Shown one piece after another: positions 17,444 through 29,794 of a DNA stretch of 64,000 bases (position 1 is the stretch's first letter; each line of letters begins with the position of its first letter). This DNA comes from Rhodoblastus acidophilus (GTDB lineage: Bacteria; Pseudomonadota; Alphaproteobacteria; Rhizobiales; Beijerinckiaceae), in contig NZ_FYDG01000001.1 of the NCBI RefSeq assembly GCF_900187365.1, forward strand, positions 310,001-374,000. The letters are read 5' to 3'. The notes beneath the pieces are model-generated. The model did not search any database. It was given only the letters and a program-made list of their open reading frames with translations, and was not told the origin of the DNA. The translations under genes and the position numbers were made by a program.

Positions 17444-17665
17444 TCAGGCCACCCATTCATAGACGTCGTCGGGCCGGCTGGCGCAAGCGCAGCCGGCCTT
17501 GCACGCCTCGCACTGGATCAGCCTGACCCGGCCCTTGCCGACCCAGTGTTGCAACAACTGCCGCGCCGCCTCAGGCGACGAGTCGAAATGCAGCGCGATG
17601 TCAGACAAAGGGGCGCGGCGGCGATCCATCAGATAGGCCTTGGCCTCGGTCAATGTCATGGCCAT
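17444..17665 (-). CDS. feoC: FeoC-like [Fe-S] winged-helix regulator of ferrous iron uptake
   Basis: 73 residues from ATG 17665; a GTG at 17674 that overlaps the feoB stop is an equally possible start. A short winged helix (LTEAKAYLMDRRRAPLSDIA, SPEAARQLLQHW) is followed by a cysteine cluster C-x2-C-x3-C-x-C (CEACKAGCAC), able to bind an iron-sulfur cluster as in FeoC. It is the last gene of feoABC, and FeoC is known to stabilise FeoB or sense oxygen and iron. Confidence 0.8.
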   Translation of the reverse strand: MAMTLTEAKAYLMDRRRAPLSDIALHFDSSPEAARQLLQHWVGKGRVRLIQCEACKAGCACASRPDDVYEWVA

Positions 17666-17670
17666 GACGG

Positions 17671-20001
17671 TCACTCGGCCGGCGCCGCGGCGTGGGCGCG
17701 CAGGCGCAGCCTCCCCGCCACGATCATCAGCCCGATCGCCAGCCCGCCGACGCCGAAGCAGGCCGCGAGCGTGTTCGCCGCCGCCGCGGGATCGCGCGCG
17801 AAAGTGGCGATCTGGTAGAACGCCACTGCCGACGTATAGCCCAGCAGCGTGTTCCACCCCGCCGAAAACGCGGTCCACCTCAGCCCGGCCTCGTGCCGGA
17901 TGGCGCCCAGCGCCGCCACGCAGGGCGTGTAGAGCAGGATGAACAGCATGTAGGCGAAGGCGCCGGCTAGGCCGTCGAAGCGGCTGGCCATGGCGCCGAA
18001 CACGCCGCCTTGAACCTTGAGTTCGGCGGCGGCGGCCTCGGCGTCGCCGGTATAGGACACGTTCAGCCCTAGCGGATCGGCCAGCGCCGACCCGATCTCG
18101 GCGAATTTGGCGGGGATGGTGGCGACGGCGTCCGAAAGCTTGGCGAGGACGCCGCTTTCCTTCGGCGCCTCGGCGCCATCGGATTTCGCCTGGACGGCGG
18201 CGTCGGCGGCGTAGAGGGAATTCAGCGTTCCCACGATCGCCTCCTTGGCGAACACGCCGGTGAACAGGCCGACGGCGGCCGGCCAGTTCTCGTCGGTCAC
18301 GCCCAGCGGACGGAACACGGGGGTGACGGCCTGGCTCGCCACCGCCAGCACGGACTCGCGCGTGTTCTCCTTGCCAAAAGTGCCGTCGGTTCCCAACGCG
18401 TTGAAAAAGCTGAGGATGGCGACGATCGGCACAATGACCTGTCCCGCGCGGAAAATAAATTCGCGCAAGCGGCGCCAGGCCTGCAACAAGACGGTGTGCG
18501 GCGTCGGCAGGTGATAGGGCGGCAATTCCATCACGAAGGGCGAGGTCGCGCCCTGGAGCACGGTGGCCTTGAGCAGCAGGCCGGTCGCCACGGCGAAGCC
18601 GATGCCGAGCAGATAGAGCGCGAACACCACATTCTGGCCGTTGCTGCTGAAAAACGCCGCCGCGAACAGCGCGTAAACCGGAAGCCGCGCGCCGCATGAC
18701 ATGAACGGCGCCATCATCATGGTGAGGATGCGGTCGCGGCGGTTCTCCAGCGTCCGCGTCGCCATGATCGCCGGCACGTTGCAGCCGAAGCCGACGATCA
18801 GCGGCACGAAGCTTTTTCCGGGCAGGCCGATGGCGCGCATGGCGCGGTCCATCACGAAGGCCGCGCGCGCCATATAGCCGGAATCTTCGAGGAAGGACAG
18901 GAACAGGAACAGCGCGCCGATGATGGGGATGAACGTGGCCACCGTCTTGACGCCGCCGCCGATGCCGGTGGCGACCAACACGGTCAGCCATTCCGGCGCG
19001 AGGACCGCCTTGAGCGCCGCGCCGACGCCGTCAACGAACAGCGCCTCCGCCGTCAGGCCGAAGAATTCGACGAAGGCGCCGCCCACCTTGATGGTGAACA
19101 GGAACATCAGATACATGGCGAACAGGAACACGGGCACGCCGAGGAAGCGGTTCAACACCACCTTGTCGATGCGCCGGGTCAGTTTCAGCGAAATCTTGCG
19201 CGGCTGGTGGAAACAGGCGGCGATGACCTCGCCAATGAAGCGATAGCGGCCGTCGGCGATGACAATGTCGGCCTCCTCGCCGCAGGCGTCCTCGATGGCC
19301 TGGCCGTGGCGCGCGATCTCGTCCTTCAGGCCGCGACCGGCCAGGGCTTCGGCGAAACCGTCGCCTTCCAGCAGCTTGAGCGCCACCCAGCCGGGATCGA
19401 CGCCCTTTTCGCGGGCGGCCTCGGCGACTGCGGGCGCAAGGGCGGCGCGCGCGGCTTGCACCGCCGGCGCGTGGGCGACCTCGACCGAGGAAACCGCCGG
19501 CGCGCGGCAGGCGCGCGCGATGGCGGCCTTCAGCTCGGCCAGCCCCTTGCGCCGGCTAGCGACCAGCGCGACCACGGGGCAATCCAGCACGCGCGACAAA
19601 GCCGCCACGTCGATGCGGACGCCGGTCTTTTCGGCGATGTCCACCATATTGACGGCGACGACGACGGGAACCCGCATCTCCAGCAATTGCGCGGTCAGAT
19701 ACAGATTGCGTTCGAGATTCGCGGCGTCGAGAATGTTGACGACGATCTTGGCCTCGCCCGACAGAATGTAGTCGCGCGCGACCCGCTCGTCCTCGGAGCC
19801 TTTCGACAGGCCGCCGATCATGTAGATGCCGGGCAGATCGACCAGATCGAATTTTTCGTCGGCGAACGTGTAACAGCCGACCTTCTTCTCGACGGTGACG
19901 CCGGGCCAGTTGCCGACCTGCTGCGTCGAGCCGGTGAGCGCGTTGAACAAGGTCGTTTTTCCGCAATTGGGATTGCCGGCGACGGCGACGACATGAGTCA
20001 T
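17671..20001 (-). CDS. feoB: Ferrous iron transporter FeoB
   Basis: 776 residues from ATG 20001 (MTHVVAVAG); a TTG at 20007 would overlap the feoA stop. The N-terminal G domain has G1 GNPNCGKTT, the G2 threonine in WPGVTVEKK, G3 DLPG and G4 NMVD, followed by the helical GDI region. The C-terminal half has two Gate segments (SFLEDSGYMARAAF and FGCNVPAIMATRTL) in a polytopic membrane domain of the usual length. It imports Fe2+ across the inner membrane. It lies between feoA and feoC with almost no spacing, a classical feoABC operon, here next to a possible iron-storage organelle cluster. Confidence 0.95.
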   Translation of the reverse strand: MTHVVAVAGNPNCGKTTLFNALTGSTQQVGNWPGVTVEKKVGCYTFADEKFDLVDLPGIYMIGGLSKGSEDERVARDYILSGEAKIVVNILDAANLERNLYLTAQLLEMRVPVVVAVNMVDIAEKTGVRIDVAALSRVLDCPVVALVASRRKGLAELKAAIARACRAPAVSSVEVAHAPAVQAARAALAPAVAEAAREKGVDPGWVALKLLEGDGFAEALAGRGLKDEIARHGQAIEDACGEEADIVIADGRYRFIGEVIAACFHQPRKISLKLTRRIDKVVLNRFLGVPVFLFAMYLMFLFTIKVGGAFVEFFGLTAEALFVDGVGAALKAVLAPEWLTVLVATGIGGGVKTVATFIPIIGALFLFLSFLEDSGYMARAAFVMDRAMRAIGLPGKSFVPLIVGFGCNVPAIMATRTLENRRDRILTMMMAPFMSCGARLPVYALFAAAFFSSNGQNVVFALYLLGIGFAVATGLLLKATVLQGATSPFVMELPPYHLPTPHTVLLQAWRRLREFIFRAGQVIVPIVAILSFFNALGTDGTFGKENTRESVLAVASQAVTPVFRPLGVTDENWPAAVGLFTGVFAKEAIVGTLNSLYAADAAVQAKSDGAEAPKESGVLAKLSDAVATIPAKFAEIGSALADPLGLNVSYTGDAEAAAAELKVQGGVFGAMASRFDGLAGAFAYMLFILLYTPCVAALGAIRHEAGLRWTAFSAGWNTLLGYTSAVAFYQIATFARDPAAAANTLAACFGVGGLAIGLMIVAGRLRLRAHAAAPAE

Positions 20002-20003
20002 GC

Positions 20004-20246
20004 TCAAAGCCTTTCAGCCAGAAGGATGGAGGCCTCGCGACGCCGCAGCGTCAGCGTGAAATTTCGAACCGACAGCTCCAGCGGATCGCCGAGCGGCGCC
20101 ACCCGCGTCACGGAAAACACGGTTCCCGGCGTCAGCCCCATCGCCAGCAGGCGCTGGCGATACTCGCGCTCGCCTTTGACGAAACCGGTGATGCGGGCGG
20201 AATCCCCCGGCTTCATCGTCTGCAGGGAAATCGCACGGTCCGTCAT
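20004..20246 (-). CDS. feoA: FeoA, SH3-like partner of FeoB
   Basis: 80 residues from ATG 20246, which follows GAGGCG; a TTG at 20264 is an alternative. The sequence has the FeoA core (SLQTMKPGDSARITGF, RQRLLAMGLTPGTVF, GDPLELSVRNFTLTLRR). FeoA is a small cytoplasmic protein required for FeoB function. The stop is 2 bases before the feoB ATG. Confidence 0.93.
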   Translation of the reverse strand: MTDRAISLQTMKPGDSARITGFVKGEREYRQRLLAMGLTPGTVFSVTRVAPLGDPLELSVRNFTLTLRRREASILLAERL

Positions 20247-20331
20247 AAGCGCCTCGTTCGGCAATAAGTTCGTTTCGATCAGGCTTCGACTATTCGCGCG
20301 CGGCGGGCGCCGGTCAAGGCGATCGCCCGGT

Positions 20332-20347: not shown

Positions 20348-20427
20348 TTAGTTTCGTTTCCCTTGAACGCCGCCGCCGCGCGGCGTGTTGTTGCGTCTAT
20401 CGGCGTCATTCGCTTTGGAGAGGCTTC

Positions 20428-20493
20428 ATGACCGGCAAGCGCCCTGGAAGGCTGGATTGCGGCAAGGACGTCGCGAAAGCGGCGCGGTCATGA
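20428..20493 (+). CDS. 21-codon leader ORF coupled to the DUF2325 gene
   Basis: An ATG at 20428 preceded by a good ribosome site (GGAGAGG, 20417-20423) opens a 21-codon frame rich in Lys and Arg (MTGKRPGRLD...). Its TGA overlaps the ATG of the DUF2325 gene as ATGA. The downstream gene itself has no good ribosome site, so it probably depends on translation of this leader. No known family. Confidence 0.5.
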   Translation: MTGKRPGRLDCGKDVAKAARS

Positions 20494-21773
20494 GGAAGGA
20501 CGCCGCGAGCGCGCCGGCTGCGCTGGCGCTGGCCTCTTCCGCCATGACCCCGATCCTGTCCGAACTGATCCGTCCTCCGGCGGGCAGCCCCGCCGCCGAC
20601 CATCGCGGCGAGGGGCGGCGCCTCGCCATCTGGGAGGTGCGCGGCGCCTCGCTGTGCTCGATCATCGGCACATGCCTTTCCCTTGCCGAATTGCGGCGCA
20701 TCGCGAAAAAATGCGCCGTGGTCGACGACCCCTGGCGCCTGAGCGACTACGACATTCACGGCACGCTGACCGCGCGCATGAGCACGGACAGCGCCGAAGC
20801 GCGCGCGGTGACGAAACATCTCGACGCCAAGTTCGAAGGCGCGATCCGCAAAGCGCGTCCGCTGCAAAGCGCCGAGGATTTCATCGCCTATTGGGAGGCC
20901 GCCGTGGACGCCGGCCTCGCGCCCGGCGCCTATTGGGCGATGGTCACGCATCCCAAACTGCCGCTTGAGGTGGAAGCGCGCGTCTATGGCGAAATCCACA
21001 TGATGTCGCACATGTCCGGCGCCTCCAATCGCGGCGACGCCCGCGCCATCGCCGAAGCGCGACGGGAAAAGGGCGAGTTGGCGCGACGGCTGTCGGCGCG
21101 GATCGGCGAGCGCGACGCCCGCTTGCGCGAAGCCGACGCCGAGCTTGCGCGGCTGCGCGCGCGCCTCGGCGCGCTGGAGACGCTGGAAGACGAATGCGCG
21201 CGGCTGCGGCGCCTCGCCGACGAGAACCTTTTGGCGTCCGAGCTGCGCGCGCATGTCAGCGAACTGGACCTGCTGCGGCAGGAGAACGCGCTGCTGAAAC
21301 GCGAGTCCACCGGCTTCGAGCTGCAATGCGAGCATCTTCGCGCCCGATTGCAGGCCGCCGAAACCCGGGGCGGCGCCGAACCGCCGCCCGATTGGACGGC
21401 GGAGGAAAGCGCGGACGGGAGCGCCGCCGAGGGTGAGGCGAAAACGGCGACACTGTGCGGCCGCTGCCTGCTTTACGTCGGCGGGCGCCCGCAGACCGTG
21501 TGCAAGCTGCGCCAGTTGATCGCCGGCCGCAACGGCCAGCTTTTGCACCATGACGGCGGGCTGGAAAACTCGCCCGCCCGTCTGGGCGAACTGGTCCGCC
21601 AGGCCGATGCGGTGTTCTTTCCGGTCGATTGCGTCAGCCATGGCGCGGCGGAGGCGGTGAAGAAAATCTGCCAGAGCGAGGGCAAGCCGATGCGGCCGTT
21701 GCGCAGCGCCAGCGCCACCACCTTCTTGCGCGCGCTGGAGGCCGATCTGGCCCCGATGACGGAGGCGTCATGA
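20490..21773 (+). CDS. DUF2325-domain protein with central coiled coil
   Basis: 427 residues. The middle (about 200-320) is a charged heptad-rich coiled coil (ARLREADAELARLRARLGAL). The C-terminal 100 residues are a DUF2325 domain: CLLYVGGRPQ, LLHHDGGLENS, ADAVFFPVDCVSHGAAE and a final SASATTFLRALE. The function of DUF2325 is not established. The gene diverges from feoABC, is entered through a leader ORF and runs by an ATGA overlap into a 30-residue membrane peptide. An iron-related or redox role is only a guess from context. Confidence 0.7.
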   Translation: MRKDAASAPAALALASSAMTPILSELIRPPAGSPAADHRGEGRRLAIWEVRGASLCSIIGTCLSLAELRRIAKKCAVVDDPWRLSDYDIHGTLTARMSTDSAEARAVTKHLDAKFEGAIRKARPLQSAEDFIAYWEAAVDAGLAPGAYWAMVTHPKLPLEVEARVYGEIHMMSHMSGASNRGDARAIAEARREKGELARRLSARIGERDARLREADAELARLRARLGALETLEDECARLRRLADENLLASELRAHVSELDLLRQENALLKRESTGFELQCEHLRARLQAAETRGGAEPPPDWTAEESADGSAAEGEAKTATLCGRCLLYVGGRPQTVCKLRQLIAGRNGQLLHHDGGLENSPARLGELVRQADAVFFPVDCVSHGAAEAVKKICQSEGKPMRPLRSASATTFLRALEADLAPMTEAS

Positions 21774-21875: not shown

Positions 21876-21896
21876 GCGCCCCGTCAGCCGGGGCGC
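21876..21896. terminator. GC hairpin between convergent genes
   Basis: GCGCCCCG-TCAGC-CGGGGCGC, a perfect 8-bp stem. The stop codon of the P-type ATPase (minus strand) is in the loop, and the 30-residue ORF ends 13 bases to the left. There is no clear U-run on either side, so termination is only likely. Confidence 0.4.
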
Positions 21897-23980
21897 CTGT
21901 CCGCTTTCGGCGCCGAACCGCGGAACGCGTTAAGCAATATGCCGATGGTGGTTCCATTGTGCAGCACGGCGGTGGCCACCGGCGACAATACGCCCAGCGC
22001 CGCCAGGCCGAGAATGGCGGTGTTGAGCCCGACCGTCAGCTTGTAATTGGTCGCGATCCGCGCCATGGCGGAATTGGCCAGCGCGCGGGCGTCGGCGACG
22101 CGGGCGATCGAATCCTCCAGCAGCACCACGTCGGCGGTGAGCCGCGCAATATCCGCGCCCTTCTGCATGGCGACCCCGACATGCGCGCCGGCCAAAGCGG
22201 GCGCGTCATTGACGCCATCGCCGACGAAGGCGATTTTCGCCCCTTTCGCGTTGAGCCCGGCAATGATCCCGGCCTTGTCCTCGGGCGTCAGTTCGGCATG
22301 AAAACCGTCGAGGCCGAGTTGGTCCGCCAGTTCCGCCGCGCGGTCCCGGTGGTCGCCGGTCAGCATCAGCACGCGCTTGACGCCCGCACGCCGCAGCCGC
22401 GCGATGGTGGCGGCGGCGTCGACGCGCAACGAATCTTTGAGCGCGAGAATGCCCAGCAGGCGGCCGCCGAAGCCGATGAACAGCAGCGTCTTGCCTTCGA
22501 GATAGAGCCGCTCCACCACATCGGCATGCGCTGATACGTCAATGCCTTCGTGGTCCTCGACGAAATGGCGCGAGCCCACGACGATGCGCTGGCCCTTGAC
22601 CTCGCTGGCCACGCCATGGGCGACGATGAACTGGACTTCGGTGTGATCGAAGTGCCTGTGCTGGTCGGTCGCCCGCGCGGCCTTGACCACCGCCAGCGCC
22701 AGCGGATGAAAATAATGCTCCTCGACCGAGGCGGCGAGGCAGATCAGATCTTCCGCACTGTAAGTCGAATCGAAGGCGATGGAGTCCGTGATCTCCAGAT
22801 GGCCCGTCGTCAGCGTCCCCGTCTTGTCGAAAATGAACGTGTCGGCGTGAGCGAGCCGCTCCAGAGCGGTCGCGCCCTTGACCAGAATCCCGGCTTGGCC
22901 CGCGTTGAACATGGCGGATTTGAACGCCACCGGCGTCGCCAGTTTTAGCGCGCAAGAATAATCGGCCTGGAGCACCGAGGCCGCCGCGCGCCAGTCGCCG
23001 GTCAGCACGGCGGAGACGCCGGCGAGTTTCAGCACCGTCGGCACCAGCCGGTCGGCGAGACGGGCGGCGTCGAGCTGCGCCTCGCTCTTGGCGGTCAGCG
23101 ATTGCTCGACATAATCGGCGATGCGCGCCGCGGCGGTGTGCCGTCCGACCTGCTCGGCGTAAATGGCGAGGCGGCCGTCCTCCATGGTCGTGCCGGATAG
23201 AACCTTGGCGCCGCGCGTTTTGATCGCCGACACGCTTTCGCCGGTCATGGCGGCTTCGTTGACCACGCCCTCGCCGGACATCACCGTGCCGTCGACGGGA
23301 ATGACCGCGCCGGCGCCCACCACGACGGTGTCGCCCACGGCGACCTCGCCTGCCGGGATTTGCACTTCCTCGCCATCGCGCAGAACCCAGATGAGATCGC
23401 TGCTCGGGCGCAACAAATGTTTCAACAGATCGTCGGAGCGCCGCGCAATCGACTGCTCCATATATTCGCCAAGCGCCAGCATGAACGTGGTGGCGTTGGC
23501 GGCGAGGAAATCCGAGCGCGCCAGCGAAATGGCGACCGCCATGGACTCGAGCACATGGCTGGTGACGCCGTTTTCGCGATAGTCGTCCACGCCCGCGCGC
23601 AGCATCGGCAACGCCGCCGCCAGACTGAGCGGCAGCCGCGCCGGCATGGGCGCGACGCTGGCGCCGACCAGCACGGCGAGCGCGGCGGCCACCGCCCCGG
23701 CGCCTTCGTCGTCGCGCGGCCGGGCCTTGACCGCATCCCAGCCCAGATCGCCCAGCGCCGTGACAATGGCCATGAGGGTGGTGCGCTGGGCGTCGAAGTC
23801 GATGACCAGCGAAGCCGCCCGGGCGTTGACCCTGGCTGACGTCACGCCGTCGATCAGCCGCGCCATGCCTTCGAGCACGGCGGCGTCAGGCGCGTGCGCG
23901 TTGCGGCGATAGCGCAGACGGACGCGCCCGGGCAACCGGTGCGCCACTTCCAACGTGCGCAGCCAGGGCGCCGCCGTCAT
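21884..23980 (-). CDS. fezB: P1B-6-type metal ATPase, probable ferrosome pump FezB
   Basis: 698 residues. The N-terminus (14-85) is an HMA_2-like ferredoxin fold without CxxC but with the motif RLPGRVRL. P-type motifs are complete: AAMTGESVS, DKTGT with the phosphorylated D385, and GDGVNDAPAL. The membrane metal motif is YSCALKLATP (S342-C343-A344) instead of CPC, the signature I recall for subgroup P1B-6. Ferrosome clusters (fez) described in Desulfovibrio, Rhodopseudomonas, Shewanella and Clostridioides are built around a P1B-6 ATPase that loads iron into membrane vesicles. The start overlaps the preceding stop as ATGA. It is the last gene of a six-gene leftward operon next to feoABC. The assignment rests on motif and context; iron as substrate is inference. 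Confidence 0.7.
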   Translation of the reverse strand: MTAAPWLRTLEVAHRLPGRVRLRYRRNAHAPDAAVLEGMARLIDGVTSARVNARAASLVIDFDAQRTTLMAIVTALGDLGWDAVKARPRDDEGAGAVAAALAVLVGASVAPMPARLPLSLAAALPMLRAGVDDYRENGVTSHVLESMAVAISLARSDFLAANATTFMLALGEYMEQSIARRSDDLLKHLLRPSSDLIWVLRDGEEVQIPAGEVAVGDTVVVGAGAVIPVDGTVMSGEGVVNEAAMTGESVSAIKTRGAKVLSGTTMEDGRLAIYAEQVGRHTAAARIADYVEQSLTAKSEAQLDAARLADRLVPTVLKLAGVSAVLTGDWRAAASVLQADYSCALKLATPVAFKSAMFNAGQAGILVKGATALERLAHADTFIFDKTGTLTTGHLEITDSIAFDSTYSAEDLICLAASVEEHYFHPLALAVVKAARATDQHRHFDHTEVQFIVAHGVASEVKGQRIVVGSRHFVEDHEGIDVSAHADVVERLYLEGKTLLFIGFGGRLLGILALKDSLRVDAAATIARLRRAGVKRVLMLTGDHRDRAAELADQLGLDGFHAELTPEDKAGIIAGLNAKGAKIAFVGDGVNDAPALAGAHVGVAMQKGADIARLTADVVLLEDSIARVADARALANSAMARIATNYKLTVGLNTAILGLAALGVLSPVATAVLHNGTTIGILLNAFRGSAPKADRRPG

Positions 23981-24315
23981 GCCGCGCCGCTCTCTTCCGC
24001 CTCGACCTCCGCCGCGAGATCGGCCATCTGCTCCTTCATTTCGGCGAAACCGCCCATCACGCTGGAATAGGCCTGGATCGCGCCCTTGAACAGTTTGCCG
24101 CGGATGTCCTCGTCGGACAAAACGTAGGCCGCGACGCCGCCGAGCGCGAGGCCGAGCAGGAACTGTTCGTTGCGGCCTTTGGGCAGCAGGTTGTTGAGGG
24201 ATGCGAACACGCCCTGGTTCGCCGGCGGCGCCATATTGGCCTGCCCCGCGAGCAGGCGCTCCAGATGGCGGCGCTTGAGACCTTTTCCCTTGTTCTTCTT
24301 TTTCTTCTTAGCCAA
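23977..24315 (-). CDS. Small Lys-rich membrane-associated protein of the fez-like operon
   Basis: 112 residues from a TTG at 24315 set by a strong ribosome site (GAAGGAGG six bases before). The N-terminus is a dense lysine block (MAKKKKKNKGKG), followed by one hydrophobic segment (FLLGLALGGVAAYVLS) and an acidic, helical C-terminus (FAEMKEQMADLAAEVEAEE). The start overlaps the preceding gene's end and the stop overlaps the ATPase start. No family recognised; basic-helix-acidic layout suits a vesicle membrane scaffold (inference). Confidence 0.65.
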   Translation of the reverse strand: MAKKKKKNKGKGLKRRHLERLLAGQANMAPPANQGVFASLNNLLPKGRNEQFLLGLALGGVAAYVLSDEDIRGKLFKGAIQAYSSVMGGFAEMKEQMADLAAEVEAEESGAA

Positions 24316-24634
24316 TTTCGGCCTCCTTCGGTTCATCATGCGTTTCTGTTGCGAGCAGGGTTTCGACAACCATGACGCCGGCGACCCCCGAAGCGACGGC
24401 CAGCACGGCGCTGAAAAAATCCTGCCGGCGCAGGCTGTCGGCGGTGGCGACGCCAGCGGCCAGGGCGAAGCCGCCCTGCAAGGCCAATTGCGCGACCTTG
24501 CGATTGGGCGGCGCGCCGGCGGCGCGATTCTGGATCGCGGCCAACAAGCCCGTAGCGACCAACCCTCGCGTAAAATTGTTGGCGAGTTCCACCGGCGCGA
24601 GCGGCGGCGCCGCTTTCGTCTTACGCTTCTTCAT
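24308..24634 (-). CDS. Small two-helix membrane protein of the fez-like operon
   Basis: 108 residues from ATG 24634, which lies inside the end of the preceding gene. A basic N-terminus (MKKRKTKAAPP) is followed by two hydrophobic helices (about 50-66, LALQGGFALAAGVATA, and 73-97, FFSAVLAVASGVAGVMVVETLL) and an acidic tail. No named domain recognised. Overlap on both sides indicates coupled translation within the operon. Confidence 0.65.
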   Translation of the reverse strand: MKKRKTKAAPPLAPVELANNFTRGLVATGLLAAIQNRAAGAPPNRKVAQLALQGGFALAAGVATADSLRRQDFFSAVLAVASGVAGVMVVETLLATETHDEPKEAEIG

Positions 24635-24938
24635 GCTTCGCGCTTTCATGGGCGGCGGGATCGGCGTCGGGTTCATCGTTCGCCGGCGCGGCGTCCGTCT
24701 GGTCCACGGACGTCTCCGTTTGTCCCGCGAGTTTGGCGCGCAGGTTGGCGGAAGATTTTTCAACGGCGCTCAGGCCGGACACCGTGACATCCCGCAATTC
24801 CTCGCCGGCCTTGTCGAATCCGCTCCGCGCTTTATGCGCGAGGGCCGTCAGTTTGGCGGGAGTCTTGGATTTTTTCAGCATTCGCACCCCGAGGGCGCCG
24901 GCCGCGACGCCGGCCACGAAAGTCAGAACGGGCAGCAT
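24621..24938 (-). CDS. Small N-anchored helical protein of the fez-like operon
   Basis: 105 residues with a good ribosome site (AAAGGAG, 7 bases before ATG). One N-terminal membrane helix (LPVLTFVAGVAAGALGV) is followed by an amphipathic helical region (LTALAHKARSGFDKAGEEL) and a disordered acidic tail rich in Asp, Ala and Glu. No family recognised. Similar single-anchor helical proteins accompany ferrosome ATPases, but I cannot name an orthologue. Confidence 0.65.
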   Translation of the reverse strand: MLPVLTFVAGVAAGALGVRMLKKSKTPAKLTALAHKARSGFDKAGEELRDVTVSGLSAVEKSSANLRAKLAGQTETSVDQTDAAPANDEPDADPAAHESAKHEEA

Positions 24939-24959
24939 GACGAACTCCTTTCAAAAAAT

Positions 24960-25277
24960 TCACGCGTGCGCAGCGCCGAGCAGCAGGCGCTCCAGCCGTT
25001 GGCTCTCGGGCGTGATTTCGCCCGAAAGAAAACCGATCCAGGCCGAGGGCGGGATCTCCCGCGCGTCGTATTCAATGGTGCAGGACCGAGCCAGGACGTT
25101 GAGACCGATCGACCTTATGCCCTCGACGGCGCCCAGCGCCTTGCCGAAACGCTTAGCCTCGCCGAGCAGTTCGGCGGGAAGCGATCCGCTCATTTTCAGG
25201 CGAATGCGGCCGGGAATGTGGTGCGCGATGTTGAGCTGGCGGACGAAACCGAGCAGCGGGGAGGCGGCGGCGGACAT
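24960..25277 (-). CDS. HMA_2-like protein with PGRIRL motif
   Basis: 105 residues from ATG 25277. It has the ferredoxin-like heavy-metal-associated fold without cysteines (GAVEGIRSIGLNVLARSCTIEYD) and the motif HIPGRIRL near residue 20, shared with the ATPase N-terminus and with the next protein upstream. Such stand-alone HMA_2 proteins co-occur with P1B-6 ATPases. It may bind metal or mediate assembly by a non-cysteine mechanism. Confidence 0.7.
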   Translation of the reverse strand: MSAAASPLLGFVRQLNIAHHIPGRIRLKMSGSLPAELLGEAKRFGKALGAVEGIRSIGLNVLARSCTIEYDAREIPPSAWIGFLSGEITPESQRLERLLLGAAHA

Positions 25278-25285
25278 AGGCGCCC

Positions 25286-25750
25286 CTAGCGAAACGCGCG
25301 CCGCCAATGGATGGCGACGTGAACCAGCATGAGGAAGACGGACAACGCCCCCGCCTGAGCATGGAGCTTCCGGCTCGAGCGCAGCGCGGCGATCGAAAAC
25401 GCCATGGCCGCAATGGCGCCGATTTTGGCGACGCGATTGATCTCCCACTTCGCGCGCGCGTTCAAAACGGGCGCGTTCGAGCGCCGCTCCGGCGCCGCGT
25501 TCGGTTGGGCTGGCGAAGGCGCGGCCTCACCAAAAAGCGCGGCGATCTCGGCACGGATGCGCGCATTCAAGCCGGCGTCGGCGGGATCGAACCGCAGCAG
25601 CAGCGATCCCGCCGACGGATTGCTCTCAACTTCGGCGAATTCGCGCAAACGATCATGAAAGCGCGCATGCGCGTCGCGATTGCGCAGCATGGGATGGCGC
25701 AGCCGAATCCGGCCGGGCAGGTCGGACGCAAAAAGACTTGTCTGTTTCAA
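25286..25750 (-). CDS. HMA_2-like domain plus two membrane helices, first gene of the fez-like operon
   Basis: 154 residues from a TTG at 25750; the frame is open to a TTG at 25834, but the promoter-like elements between the two favour the shorter form. The N-terminal domain carries DLPGRIRL and a ferredoxin-like pattern (SAGSLLLRFDPADAG). The C-terminus has two hydrophobic helices (VAKIGAIAAMAFSIAAL and LSVFLMLVHVAIHW). It is 8 bases before the next HMA_2 gene. Probable metal-organelle membrane protein; exact start uncertain. Confidence 0.62.
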   Translation of the reverse strand: MKQTSLFASDLPGRIRLRHPMLRNRDAHARFHDRLREFAEVESNPSAGSLLLRFDPADAGLNARIRAEIAALFGEAAPSPAQPNAAPERRSNAPVLNARAKWEINRVAKIGAIAAMAFSIAALRSSRKLHAQAGALSVFLMLVHVAIHWRRAFR

Positions 25751-26386
25751 TGAAGCGTACCCCGAAGCGCGGCGTGGCAATGGCGTCCAATATTCAAATA
25801 TAGAATACTTCCAGGGCTTCGAAGCTTGATCCAAGTCAATTGCAGCGACCTAACCTTACGTACGGTTTTATTTTTTAAGGCGCTTATTCCCCGAGCGCCG
25901 CCGGTGCGAAACATCTGACTAAAATCCCATTCCCGCCACGGCGATGATCTTTGCGACGCGCACGATCATGCGCCATGCGCAAGCTGGACCCAAGCGGATC
26001 GACGCTCTTTAGACGGATTCAAAATGTGCGGGGACTTTAAACGGGACCGCGCGGGCCTGATCCAGGATGATCACAATTCAGGAGATCCGCCGGACATGGC
26101 GGCTGAAACGGACGCGCCTCGACAAAAGGGGACGACGGCGGGTCGGAAACGCAACAGGGTGCGGACCTCGGCCTTGCATCTGTTTCGGCGAACCGCCGCC
26201 ACTGATCGGCGACGCCCCCCTGGTTGACGGTGACGTAACGCTACGAAGATAGCAAAGCTCCACCTTGGTATTTATTCAAACGCACTATCGTGACTTGGTC
26301 GCATATCCACAACGCCATGGCTCAATCGCAACCTTTTACCTATGAAATGAACATTGAAATAACATTCAGCGAGAAGGAGTGTTGAC
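25751..26386. other. Divergent intergenic region, fez-like operon / MerR gene
   Basis: 636 bases. The left end carries the FNR-like box and -10-like sequences for the fez-like operon. At 25852-25867 there is a near-perfect 16-bp palindrome (AACCTTACGTACGGTT, 7 of 8 pairs), and CGTAACG occurs at 26234. Short open frames at 26024-26252 have no ribosome site and unremarkable composition, so I see no gene. Confidence 0.5.
25826..25839 (-). promoter_or_regulatory. FNR/FixK-like box before the fez-like operon
   Basis: TTGACTTGGATCAA read leftward (TTGAT-N4-ATCAA consensus, 9 of 10 positions). A -10-like TATATT (25802-25797, leftward) would start transcription near 25790, putting the box centre about 42 bases upstream, the class II activator position. 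It leaves a leader of about 40 bases to the TTG at 25750. It predicts low-oxygen induction. Confidence 0.5.
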
Positions 26387-27782: not shown

Positions 27783-28376
27783 ATGGTGATCTCAATGAAT
27801 ATCGGATTTAAGATCGCGACAGTCGCATTAAGCGTCGCGTTATCGACTGTTTCCGTCAAGGCGGACGTCGTCTCGGACATCGCGGGGACGTTGGGCTTGG
27901 TCGGCAAGGTCACAGCCGTCACCGGTGGGAAGAACTCGTTCTACAGCACCCAGGACACAGCGCAGTCTTTCGTCGCCGCGCTGACGGGCATCTGGAATTC
28001 TTCTTACAGTGGTTACAAAACCAGCTTCGATGCAATCGTCGCCGCAGTCGACACCTATGGCCAGACCAACAACGACACCAAGCACGGCGGCGTCTACACC
28101 AAAATCAGCGGCAGCGGCAGTAGCCTCGAACTGTTCTCAAGCAGCAACGATGCTTCCTGGAACATCAGCCTGTTGTTCAACACTTCCGCGAAGTCTCTCG
28201 CCTATGACGGCGGAACTGTGAACACCACGACGCTCACGGTCGACAAAGTCAGTGGAAGCCTGTCCGCTCCCGGCCCGATCGCCGGCGCTGGCCTTCCCGC
28301 GTTGATGGCGCTGCTGGGCGGAGCTTTTGTCCTTCGTCGCCGCAAGGTGGTTTCAGAATCCCCTGCGCTCGGCTGA
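27783..28376 (+). CDS. Secreted protein with PGP-CTERM sorting signal 1
   Basis: 197 residues; ATG 27795 is an alternative start four codons on. A signal peptide (MNIGFKIATVALSVALSTVSVKA) leads a Ser/Gly/Thr-rich mature part without a named domain. The C-terminus is a tripartite sorting signal: APGPIAGAGLP, a hydrophobic helix (ALMALLGGAFVL) and RRRK. This is the PEP-CTERM-like layout recognised by exosortases. First of three such genes in a row. Confidence 0.75.
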   Translation: MVISMNIGFKIATVALSVALSTVSVKADVVSDIAGTLGLVGKVTAVTGGKNSFYSTQDTAQSFVAALTGIWNSSYSGYKTSFDAIVAAVDTYGQTNNDTKHGGVYTKISGSGSSLELFSSSNDASWNISLLFNTSAKSLAYDGGTVNTTTLTVDKVSGSLSAPGPIAGAGLPALMALLGGAFVLRRRKVVSESPALG

Positions 28377-28466
28377 CGCCCTGAGGCGTCGCGCATATTG
28401 CGCGCTTCGCTCTCGGGCGGCGCGATTGCACAACAGAATCGCAATCTGACCCTATCGGTGGCTCAA

Positions 28467-28925
28467 ATGAACAAAACTTTCTCGTCCCTCTCTCTGGCGG
28501 CAGGCCTCGTGCTCGGCATGACAGTCGGCTCCGGCGCCGCGACTGTCGCGGACCGGCTCGGAATCTACCAAGACTCGATCTCGCCGAGCAATGCGCAGAC
28601 TTTTTACAGCTCGCTCGGCTATGACAAGTTCGTCCAGGCGTTTAATTTCGCGGTGTCCGACCCGACCGTCGGCCTGGACGGCATCAAGAGTTCGCTGGAT
28701 AATTTCGGCAAGTCTTGGGAAAGCCCGGCCCCGTTCTCCATCGCCAATAAAGTGACGATCTTGGGCAATGGCGCTTGGTTTCAGGTCGTGGATTTTTCGA
28801 ACACGGCCCACCCCGGCATTAGCCAGATCAACAGCGTTCCCGGTCCGATCGTCGGCGCGGGACTACCCGCCTTGTTCGGCCTTGTCGGCGCCGCTTGGGC
28901 CATCCGCCGCCGGAAAATGGTCTAA
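28467..28925 (+). CDS. Secreted protein with PGP-CTERM sorting signal 2
   Basis: 152 residues from ATG 28467 (MNKTFSSLSLAAGLVLG). After the signal peptide the mature part is short and has no named domain (YSSLGYDKFVQAFNFAV). The C-terminus reads VPGPIVGAGLP-ALFGLVGAAWAI-RRRK, almost the same sorting signal as the preceding protein. A probable exosortase substrate. A strong terminator follows 38 bases after the stop. Confidence 0.75.
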   Translation: MNKTFSSLSLAAGLVLGMTVGSGAATVADRLGIYQDSISPSNAQTFYSSLGYDKFVQAFNFAVSDPTVGLDGIKSSLDNFGKSWESPAPFSIANKVTILGNGAWFQVVDFSNTAHPGISQINSVPGPIVGAGLPALFGLVGAAWAIRRRKMV

Positions 28926-28962
28926 CAGGACTGCGGCGAGGCGCCTCGTGCTCCGCCAAGCT

Positions 28963-29000
28963 CGCCAGATCGCTGCAGGCGGCGATCTGGCGTTCGTTTT
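28963..29000 (+). terminator. Rho-independent terminator
   Basis: CGCCAGATCGC (28963-28973), an 8-base loop and GCGATCTGGCG (28982-28992) form a perfect 11-bp stem, followed by TTCGTTTT. It should separate sorting-signal genes 2 and 3. Confidence 0.75.
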
Positions 29001-29119
29001 CCATTTGGCGGTCCGCGACCGATCGGGATCGGACTCTACACTATCCGCAATTCGACACAGTGACGACAAGACGGATGATCAGAGTTCGCTTCAGGAATTG
29101 CAGTTTGAGTGAGGATATC

Positions 29120-29794
29120 GTGCGTCGCTTCTCCGTTTTTGCCGTTCTACTCCTTTGCTGTGGCGGAACCGCGCTCGCGCAGACTGCGCCGGACAATCGC
29201 CTTTCCACCCTCAACCGCGCCGTCGGCTCCATATTGGACAGCCTTAACAACAAGTCCGGCGACGCCTTGAAGGGCGCGGTGCTGCAAGAGCTCAACGGCG
29301 CCATTGCGACGGACCCGAACAGCGCAGAGACCATTGTGAAGGCGGTCAAGGCGGGCGCTGGCCCAAACTTGCCGGTCTTTCAGGGGGTGTTGGTGGGCCT
29401 TTGCATTCAGGGAGCCCTCTCTTGTAGGCTGCCTGCCCTTGCGCCGGAGATCCCGACAGGCGCCGTCAGCTCGGGTGGCGGCGGCGGATCGGGCGGGGGC
29501 GGCGGGGGTGGCGTAGGCGGCAGCCCGCAGACGAATTTCGGCCAAAACCACCAAAGCTATGTAATGAGCGCACTGGCGCAGAACAGCGACGCGCAGCGTT
29601 TCAGCTTCGTCGCCCCATCGCCCAGCTACGGCTCATCCTACGCCACCCGCACCGTGGTGATAGACACGCCCGGGCCGCAATTGGGCGCAGGCGGAGCGCC
29701 AGCGCTGCTGGCTGTTCTTTGGTGGATCGGGAGGAAGCTGTCCCGGCGGCAGGGCGAGCGCGGACCTGAAACAATCCGGCGCCGCCGCGCCTGA
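29120..29794 (+). CDS. Secreted Gly-rich protein with PGP-CTERM-like signal 3
   Basis: 224 residues from a GTG at 29120 preceded by GAGG; upstream in-frame starts would bury the signal peptide (VRRFSVFAVLLLCCGGTALAQ). The mature part has a helical N-half (SILDSLNNKSGDALKGAVLQ) and a glycine tract near residues 120-140. The C-terminus reads TPGPQLGAGGAPALLAVLWW-IGRKLSRR, a looser version of the sorting signal in the two preceding proteins. A probable exosortase substrate; no enzymatic domain is visible. Confidence 0.65.
   Translation: MRRFSVFAVLLLCCGGTALAQTAPDNRLSTLNRAVGSILDSLNNKSGDALKGAVLQELNGAIATDPNSAETIVKAVKAGAGPNLPVFQGVLVGLCIQGALSCRLPALAPEIPTGAVSSGGGGGSGGGGGGGVGGSPQTNFGQNHQSYVMSALAQNSDAQRFSFVAPSPSYGSSYATRTVVIDTPGPQLGAGGAPALLAVLWWIGRKLSRRQGERGPETIRRRRA

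Follow-up and report, generated by a model that had tools for sequence, protein, structure and literature searches.

What does Rhodoblastus acidophilus make of a tightly packed operon that ends in a P-type ATPase gene and lies next to genes for ferrous iron uptake? The question is raised by a stretch of 64,000 nucleotides (contig NZ_FYDG01000001.1, positions 310,001 to 374,000, from a genome of 4.71 Mb), hereafter the window, in which six leftward open reading frames (ORFs) are packed into 21884-25750 on the minus strand. A first-pass annotation had read them as an operon for ferrosomes, the iron-storing vesicles specified by fez genes. We conclude that they very probably constitute a proteobacterial six-gene fez cluster of the Rhodopseudomonas kind, on the strength of gene content and order, the clade of the ATPase, conserved histidines, co-occurrence of the genes and linkage to feo and irr, all of which can be read from the DNA. 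Because the six-gene cluster is as in Rhodopseudomonas, a genus with a reported ferrosome-forming strain, Rhodoblastus is probably able to build ferrosomes as well, the vesicles being predicted from the genes, and the ferrosome prediction is thereby extended to this genus.

The operon and its ATPase

Along the operon the intergenic spacings are +8, +21, -14, -8 and -4 nucleotides (negative values denoting overlaps), and this succession of short gaps and overlaps suggests a single operon with translational coupling. All six frames are intact, and the ORFs, their spacing and their Pfam domains agree with the first-pass description of a six-gene leftward operon ending in a P-type ATPase. TTG serves as start codon in two of the six genes: the start of gene 1 was placed at TTG 25750, in line with where this gene begins in R. 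acidophilus DSM 142, and that of gene 5 at TTG 24315, which is preceded by AAGGAGG.

Gene 6 (21884..23980, minus strand, 698 amino acids) encodes the FezB candidate, a P1B-type ATPase with E1-E2_ATPase and HAD hydrolase domains far above the Pfam cut-offs and an HMA_2-like N-terminus (25.7 bits, under the Pfam cut-off of 30) that lacks a CxxC motif. Its fourth transmembrane segment (TM4) is ASVLQADYSCALKLATPVAF, with DYSCALK at its core, and thus contains the S-C-A motif to which attention had first been drawn. Aligned with the CPC-containing pumps of the same genome (ACPCALGLATP, ACPCAMGLATP, GCPCALVISTP and TCPCALALAVP), the segment QADYSCALKLATP has Tyr-Ser in place of the first Cys and the Pro, keeps the second Cys and carries a Lys after it, so that Y-S-C-A stands against C-P-C-A. 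We take this pattern to be the signature of the P1B-6 group. That group is tabulated with Fe(II) in a review (PMC7558416). Near the C-terminus, alignment with the genome's own Cu and Zn pumps reveals LHNGTT instead of the MxxSS (Cu) or Asp (Zn) motifs described in PMC4932525. Where a P1B-1 exporter of Cu+ combines CPC in TM4 with MxxSS, the window ATPase has Y-S-C and HNGTT, and where a P1B-2 exporter of Zn2+/Cd2+/Pb2+ combines CPC with the Asp motif, it has Y-S-C and HNG.

The same separation is seen in a tree of 45 ATPase rows, hand-picked from the examined loci and others and built with Mn exporters outside its scope. ATPases with DYSC or DYAC in TM4 form a single clade of 35 rows (support 100/100), which divides into 24 rows of the six-gene type together with Campylobacterota (100/99) and 11 rows of a second type, mainly from other Rhizobiales (99/96). 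The window ATPase groups with three Rhodoblastus sequences (100/100), with Rhodopseudomonas next (100/99). Outside the clade lie three ATPases with DYGTG, three CPC ATPases of Campylobacterota-type fez loci and the four CPC pumps of the genome itself, three of which have an unsure exact place because of their long branches. A grouping of the ATPase with Cu or Zn exporters, named in the first-pass annotation as the outcome that would speak against it, did not occur with the genome's own CPC pumps as the comparison. By sequence, the window protein is a candidate FezB-type P1B ATPase apart from the Cu and Zn pumps. Some Campylobacterota-type fez loci encode, shortly before the gene-2-like protein, a further P-type ATPase whose TM4 has CPC (L067 4760-6973, L102 2171-4378 and L106 22-2226).

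The five small proteins

Gene 1 (25286..25750, minus strand, 154 amino acids) looks like a FezC, a candidacy that we base on two invariant histidines and on the reported nature of FezC, a DUF4405-like protein that carries haem b at sites formed by a homodimer (PMC11334425). His130 and His144 are conserved in all 33 homologues and in 26/26 proteins of a second alignment; they lie 14 residues apart on the same helix, a spacing that would suit two haems across a membrane, and haem binding is accordingly a prediction from these residues. The predicted model comprises a ferredoxin-like domain followed by two long helices (residues 98-125 and 127-153; mean predicted local distance difference test (pLDDT) score 83.6, predicted template modelling (pTM) score 0.53). 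In the profile searches HMA_2 is matched at E<=0.1 by all 26 gene-1 proteins scanned and DUF4405 by 15 of the 26, all of these matches being weak.

Gene 2 (24960..25277, minus strand, 105 amino acids) encodes a soluble protein and is the only gene of the operon to pass the Pfam HMA_2 cut-off (32.5 bits against 30). PGR, HxxPGR and a single Cys are invariant in 22/22 aligned proteins, and gene 2 lacks CxxC. The proposal of two small HMA_2-like proteins devoid of metal cysteines stands for gene 2 as to the domain and the missing CxxC, with the qualification of its one invariant Cys; as to the domain, gene 1 has the weak matches of its homologues, the window copy itself (23.4 bits) being under the cut-off. 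The motif PGR(I/V)RL is present in genes 1, 2 and 6, the three proteins in which it had been noticed, and its sharing among operon proteins is, as judged from the alignments, beyond chance, because the pattern (P/S)GR(I/V/L/M)R occurs in 33/33 gene-1 homologues and PGR in 22/22 gene-2 proteins.

The three remaining small proteins had all been described as membrane-associated. A simple hydropathy scan places membrane segments in genes 1, 3, 4 and 6, and in gene 5 finds none above the threshold, which by this measure qualifies the description for gene 5. Gene 3 (24621..24938, minus strand, 105 amino acids; alignment of 18) combines an N-terminal glycine-patterned membrane segment with an amphipathic stretch and a tail, the latter being Lys/Pro/Ala-rich in several relatives but acidic and short in the window; the protein matched no Pfam family. 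Gene 4 (24308..24634, minus strand, 108 amino acids; alignment of 19) encodes a small membrane protein. Gene 5 (23977..24315, minus strand, 112 amino acids; alignment of 26) has a Lys-rich N-terminus, then a hydrophobic and a long amphipathic helix; 23/26 homologues give a weak match to DUF5132, and the predicted model is poor (mean pLDDT 64.6). As it lies directly before the ATPase gene, gene 5 may, by position only, be the counterpart of FezA. In two loci of the second ATPase clade from other Rhizobiales (L014 942-1400 and L018 798-1421), the gene-5-like protein before the ATPase carries an N-terminal extension rich in Gly, Gln, Asn and Pro, and the system may there exist in a condensate-like or scaffold form.

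Distribution and iron-linked surroundings

Loci with an ATPase homologue were drawn from 581 confirmed stretches of GTDB genomes, the best 80 of which were kept and all examined for gene content; named ones among them are from Rhodoblastus, Rhodopseudomonas sp. BR0M22, Magnetospirillum, Azospirillum, Aromatoleum and many Campylobacterota. For gene order we used a set of 43 loci, comprising the window, the best 36 of the 80 (L030-L065) and L118, L119, L120, L122, L125 and L022; L121 was omitted as it comes from the same genome as L038. The profiles searched against these loci were built from the same 43, and counts of gene 1 use only matches outside the ATPase ORF, because the gene-1 profile had absorbed ATPase N-termini. 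All six genes occur in the same order in 33/43 loci. Among the ten incomplete or out-of-order loci, contig ends cut L034, L053, L065 and L125, no separate gene 1 is found in L057, L060 and L064, genes 1 and 2 are missing from L059, and L022 and L122 represent the second ATPase clade. In PLSDB, 12 plasmid records match, eight of them from Azospirillum.

Counting the genome itself in each case, ATPase matches were found in 8/149 genomes of the family, 14/297 of the order (E<=1e-100) and 2/385 of the class (E<=1e-130). Of the eight family genomes, three belong to Rhodoblastus, while the ATPase has DYSCT in TM4 in a further three and DYGTG in the last two. The gene 5 profile matched 7/149 family genomes, namely the three Rhodoblastus and the three DYSCT genomes, each time adjoining the ATPase, and weakly (E 1.9e-4) one genome that has no ATPase match in the family search; in the two DYGTG genomes that search gave no gene 5 match. 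Within Rhodoblastus, the ATPase occurs in 4/11 genomes, and gene 4 and a full-length gene 1 occur in the same four; in a fifth genome gene 1 is matched just weakly and over part of its length. Since the genus thus has genomes with and without the cluster, it offers a natural within-genus comparison. The nearest ATPase relatives are those of R. acidophilus and R. sphagnicola, and the other three copies in Rhodoblastus share 87-90% identity with the window protein. In Rhodopseudomonas an ATPase match is present in 5/16 genomes, with 74-75% identity in four of them and 42% in the fifth, and the four have the window's six genes in identical order. By this homology the ferrosome reading of the first-pass annotation is supported; its suggestion of possibly new small proteins is not, because all five have same-order homologues elsewhere, each of them being represented in the Rhodopseudomonas cluster as well as in many further proteobacteria. 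On sequence grounds the cluster is a further example of a system already known.

The genomic context of the operon is, by gene content, iron-linked. As had been claimed, feoABC is adjacent: feoA (20004..20264; FeoA 69.5 bits), feoB for the Fe2+ permease (17671..20007; FeoB_N 218.7 bits, and above the NCBIfam FeoB cut-off) and feoC (17444..17665; FeoC 72.5 bits, cut-off 21) are all on the minus strand and above their Pfam cut-offs. They are separate from the fez operon, with a plus-strand DUF2325 gene (20385-21773) in between. This gene encodes a coiled-coil protein, and R. acidophilus DSM 142 and R. sphagnicola likewise carry it next to feoAB (with the window, 3/43 loci); R. acidophilus MO has the gene of a CopA-like ATPase (L031 11533-13998, minus strand) directly past the fez ATPase, where other Rhodoblastus carry DUF2325 and feo. 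In the window, L030 and L032, feoABC lies beyond the DUF2325 gene, on the side opposite gene 1, and in L037, L048, L056, L061, L062 and L063 it runs straight into gene 1. That feoABC adjoins fez in more than one arrangement points to Fe2+ uptake feeding the organelle. Across the 43 loci feoB was found in 10 and an Irr-query match in 10, with at least one of them in 18 (a union made by hand), counts to be read with the shortness of many fetched stretches and the non-independence of related species in mind; the two Irr-query matches that were checked, in L118 and L030, exceed the IrrA cut-off.

Upstream of gene 1, the scans used FNR/FixK and ICE consensus patterns. An FNR/FixK-like box, TTGACTTGGATCAA (25826..25839, minus strand), is an exact match to the pattern, and R. 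acidophilus DSM 142 has the same letters; exact boxes occur in 4/33 upstream stretches, where 0.008 are expected per stretch, and those of the window and L032 are shared by descent. An ICE-like (Irr box) site at 26008..26024 on the minus strand has two mismatches to the consensus, and such sites (up to four mismatches) are present in all four Rhodoblastus loci and 6/33 loci overall, against a background of 2% of stretches. As control elements of this operon the two sites are no more than suggestive, and most of the other loci lack them. A promoter element common to all fez operons was considered and is unsupported by frequencies of 4/33 and 6/33.

Further along the window, three neighbouring genes at 27783-29794 (plus strand) encode putative exported proteins with a common C-terminal tail, PGP-I/Q-x-GAG-x-PAL...RRxK, that resembles a sorting signal; no Pfam or NCBIfam family matched them above cut-off. 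They are flanked by pairs of MerR-type and XRE-type regulators (26387-26803/26835-27251 and 29912-30478/30823-31239).

Predicted function, alternatives and known systems

If the cluster works as a ferrosome system, Feo would import Fe2+ into the cytoplasm and the FezB ATPase, placed in the vesicle membrane, would pump it into the lumen, while the products of genes 3, 4 and 5 would shape, anchor or recruit the vesicle. The FezC-like product of gene 1 could form a dimer that holds two b haems and moves electrons across the vesicle membrane, helping iron to be stored as Fe3+ or released as Fe2+, and gene 2 might encode a soluble protein of HMA fold that partners the ATPase. What we infer here is that iron is the substrate, which way it is pumped, that vesicles form, that haem is bound, and every role of genes 2-5. 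More tentatively, and as a possibility that we would not favour in its full detail, iron loading of proteobacterial ferrosomes might run through a redox circuit in the membrane; gene 1 could be a dimeric two-haem half-cytochrome whose HMA-fold domain docks on the HMA-like N-terminus of the ATPase, coupling Fe2+ pumping to oxidation or reduction in the lumen, with the Rhodoblastus operon switched by Irr-type (haem/iron) and FNR/FixK-type (oxygen) sites. The gene-family alignments supply precise residues for testing, namely Cys343 and Lys346 of the ATPase and His130 and His144 of gene 1.

Several observations weigh against a ferrosome cluster. The window gene 1 scores 18.6 bits for DUF4405 where the cut-off is 26.7, and the unrelated CT_C_D family reaches similar E-values in 7/26 gene-1 proteins, which makes the DUF4405 match weak when taken by itself; Foldseek, run with the gene-1 model, returned nothing significant (best E 0.1). 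The ATPase exceeds the cut-off of the NCBIfam Cd-type model TIGR01512 (351.3 against 313.5 bits). The close ATPase type occurs in only 4/16 Rhodopseudomonas genomes, among which CGA009 was not found. In three Rhodopseudomonas genomes in which the matching contig has the size of a whole chromosome, the ATPase gene lies at 2.55 of 5.27, 2.49 of 5.32 and 1.56 of 5.04 Mb, the third departing from the other two. Gene number 2333 of a chromosome with some 4800 genes fits the first two positions and not the third; this evidence is weak either way because a record may start anywhere on the chromosome. The genome also has three ferritin-family matches (C38:144018-144425, C29:955176-955595 and C53:70278-70679, one with an in-frame TAG), so iron could be stored elsewhere. 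Finally, the likeness to the tested proteins FezA, FezB and FezC is a likeness to their published descriptions. Ferrosomes in this organism would coexist with ferritin-type storage.

Among the alternatives, the one that survives best, though we consider it unlikely, is efflux of Fe2+ (or Co2+/Ni2+) across the cytoplasmic membrane by the same ATPase and accessory membrane proteins, with no vesicle involved. Metal export is a role of P1B ATPases, the Rhizobium P1B-5 pump Nia handling both Ni and Fe (PMC4932525), and a vesicle and the cytoplasmic membrane are indistinguishable from sequence alone; however, five conserved partner genes accompany the ATPase, and ferrosomes are reported from a Rhodopseudomonas strain that has a fez set of six genes (PMC12016538). 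Far less probable is an operon for export of Zn/Cd or Cu. The ATPase does pass the NCBIfam heavy-metal model as well as the Cd-type one, and its best matches in the PDB are Cu and Zn/Cd pumps, but it stays under the cut-off of the Cu model (315.2 against 397), and TM4 without CPC, HNGTT in place of MxxSS or the Asp motif, and a tree that sets it apart from the genome's own CPC pumps lead us to reject such an operon. We give equally little credence to a recently acquired or decaying copy unused in this strain, since the patchy occurrence in 4/11 genus genomes and the TTG starts of two genes are set against six intact frames, 87-90% identity of the ATPase to three Rhodoblastus copies and a preserved gene order.

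Returning to the ferrosome reading, comparison with known systems begins with CopA and ZntA, with which the window ATPase shares the core domains of P1B-type pumps, differing in the absence of CPC and CxxC and in its C-terminal motif. FezC, studied in Desulfurispirillum indicum and also named in Desulfovibrio magneticus, is described as a small membrane protein with conserved His and haem sites in a homodimer (PMC11334425). Gene 1 resembles it in its two invariant His and weak DUF4405 match and differs in that this match falls under the Pfam cut-off; its HMA_2-like domain lies outside the FezC features described there. In Clostridioides difficile, ferrosomes need both the P-type transporter FezB and the membrane protein FezA, a plan that the operon resembles by description, and fez is repressed by Fur (PMC12574912); the window has six genes. 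Closest is Rhodopseudomonas. Among the papers listed by a literature search, none pairs Rhodoblastus with the ferrosome; in the literature searched, RPA2333-2338 are named in two papers and RPA2339 in none. An irr-type gene stands beside three Rhodopseudomonas clusters, where the window has feoABC instead. R. palustris CGA009 is reported to make ferrosomes using six fez genes (PMC12016538), and its rpa2333-2338 are lowered at low light along with iron genes (PMC6879726). Compared by description, RPA2333-2338 are, like the operon of the window, six genes annotated for metal transport.

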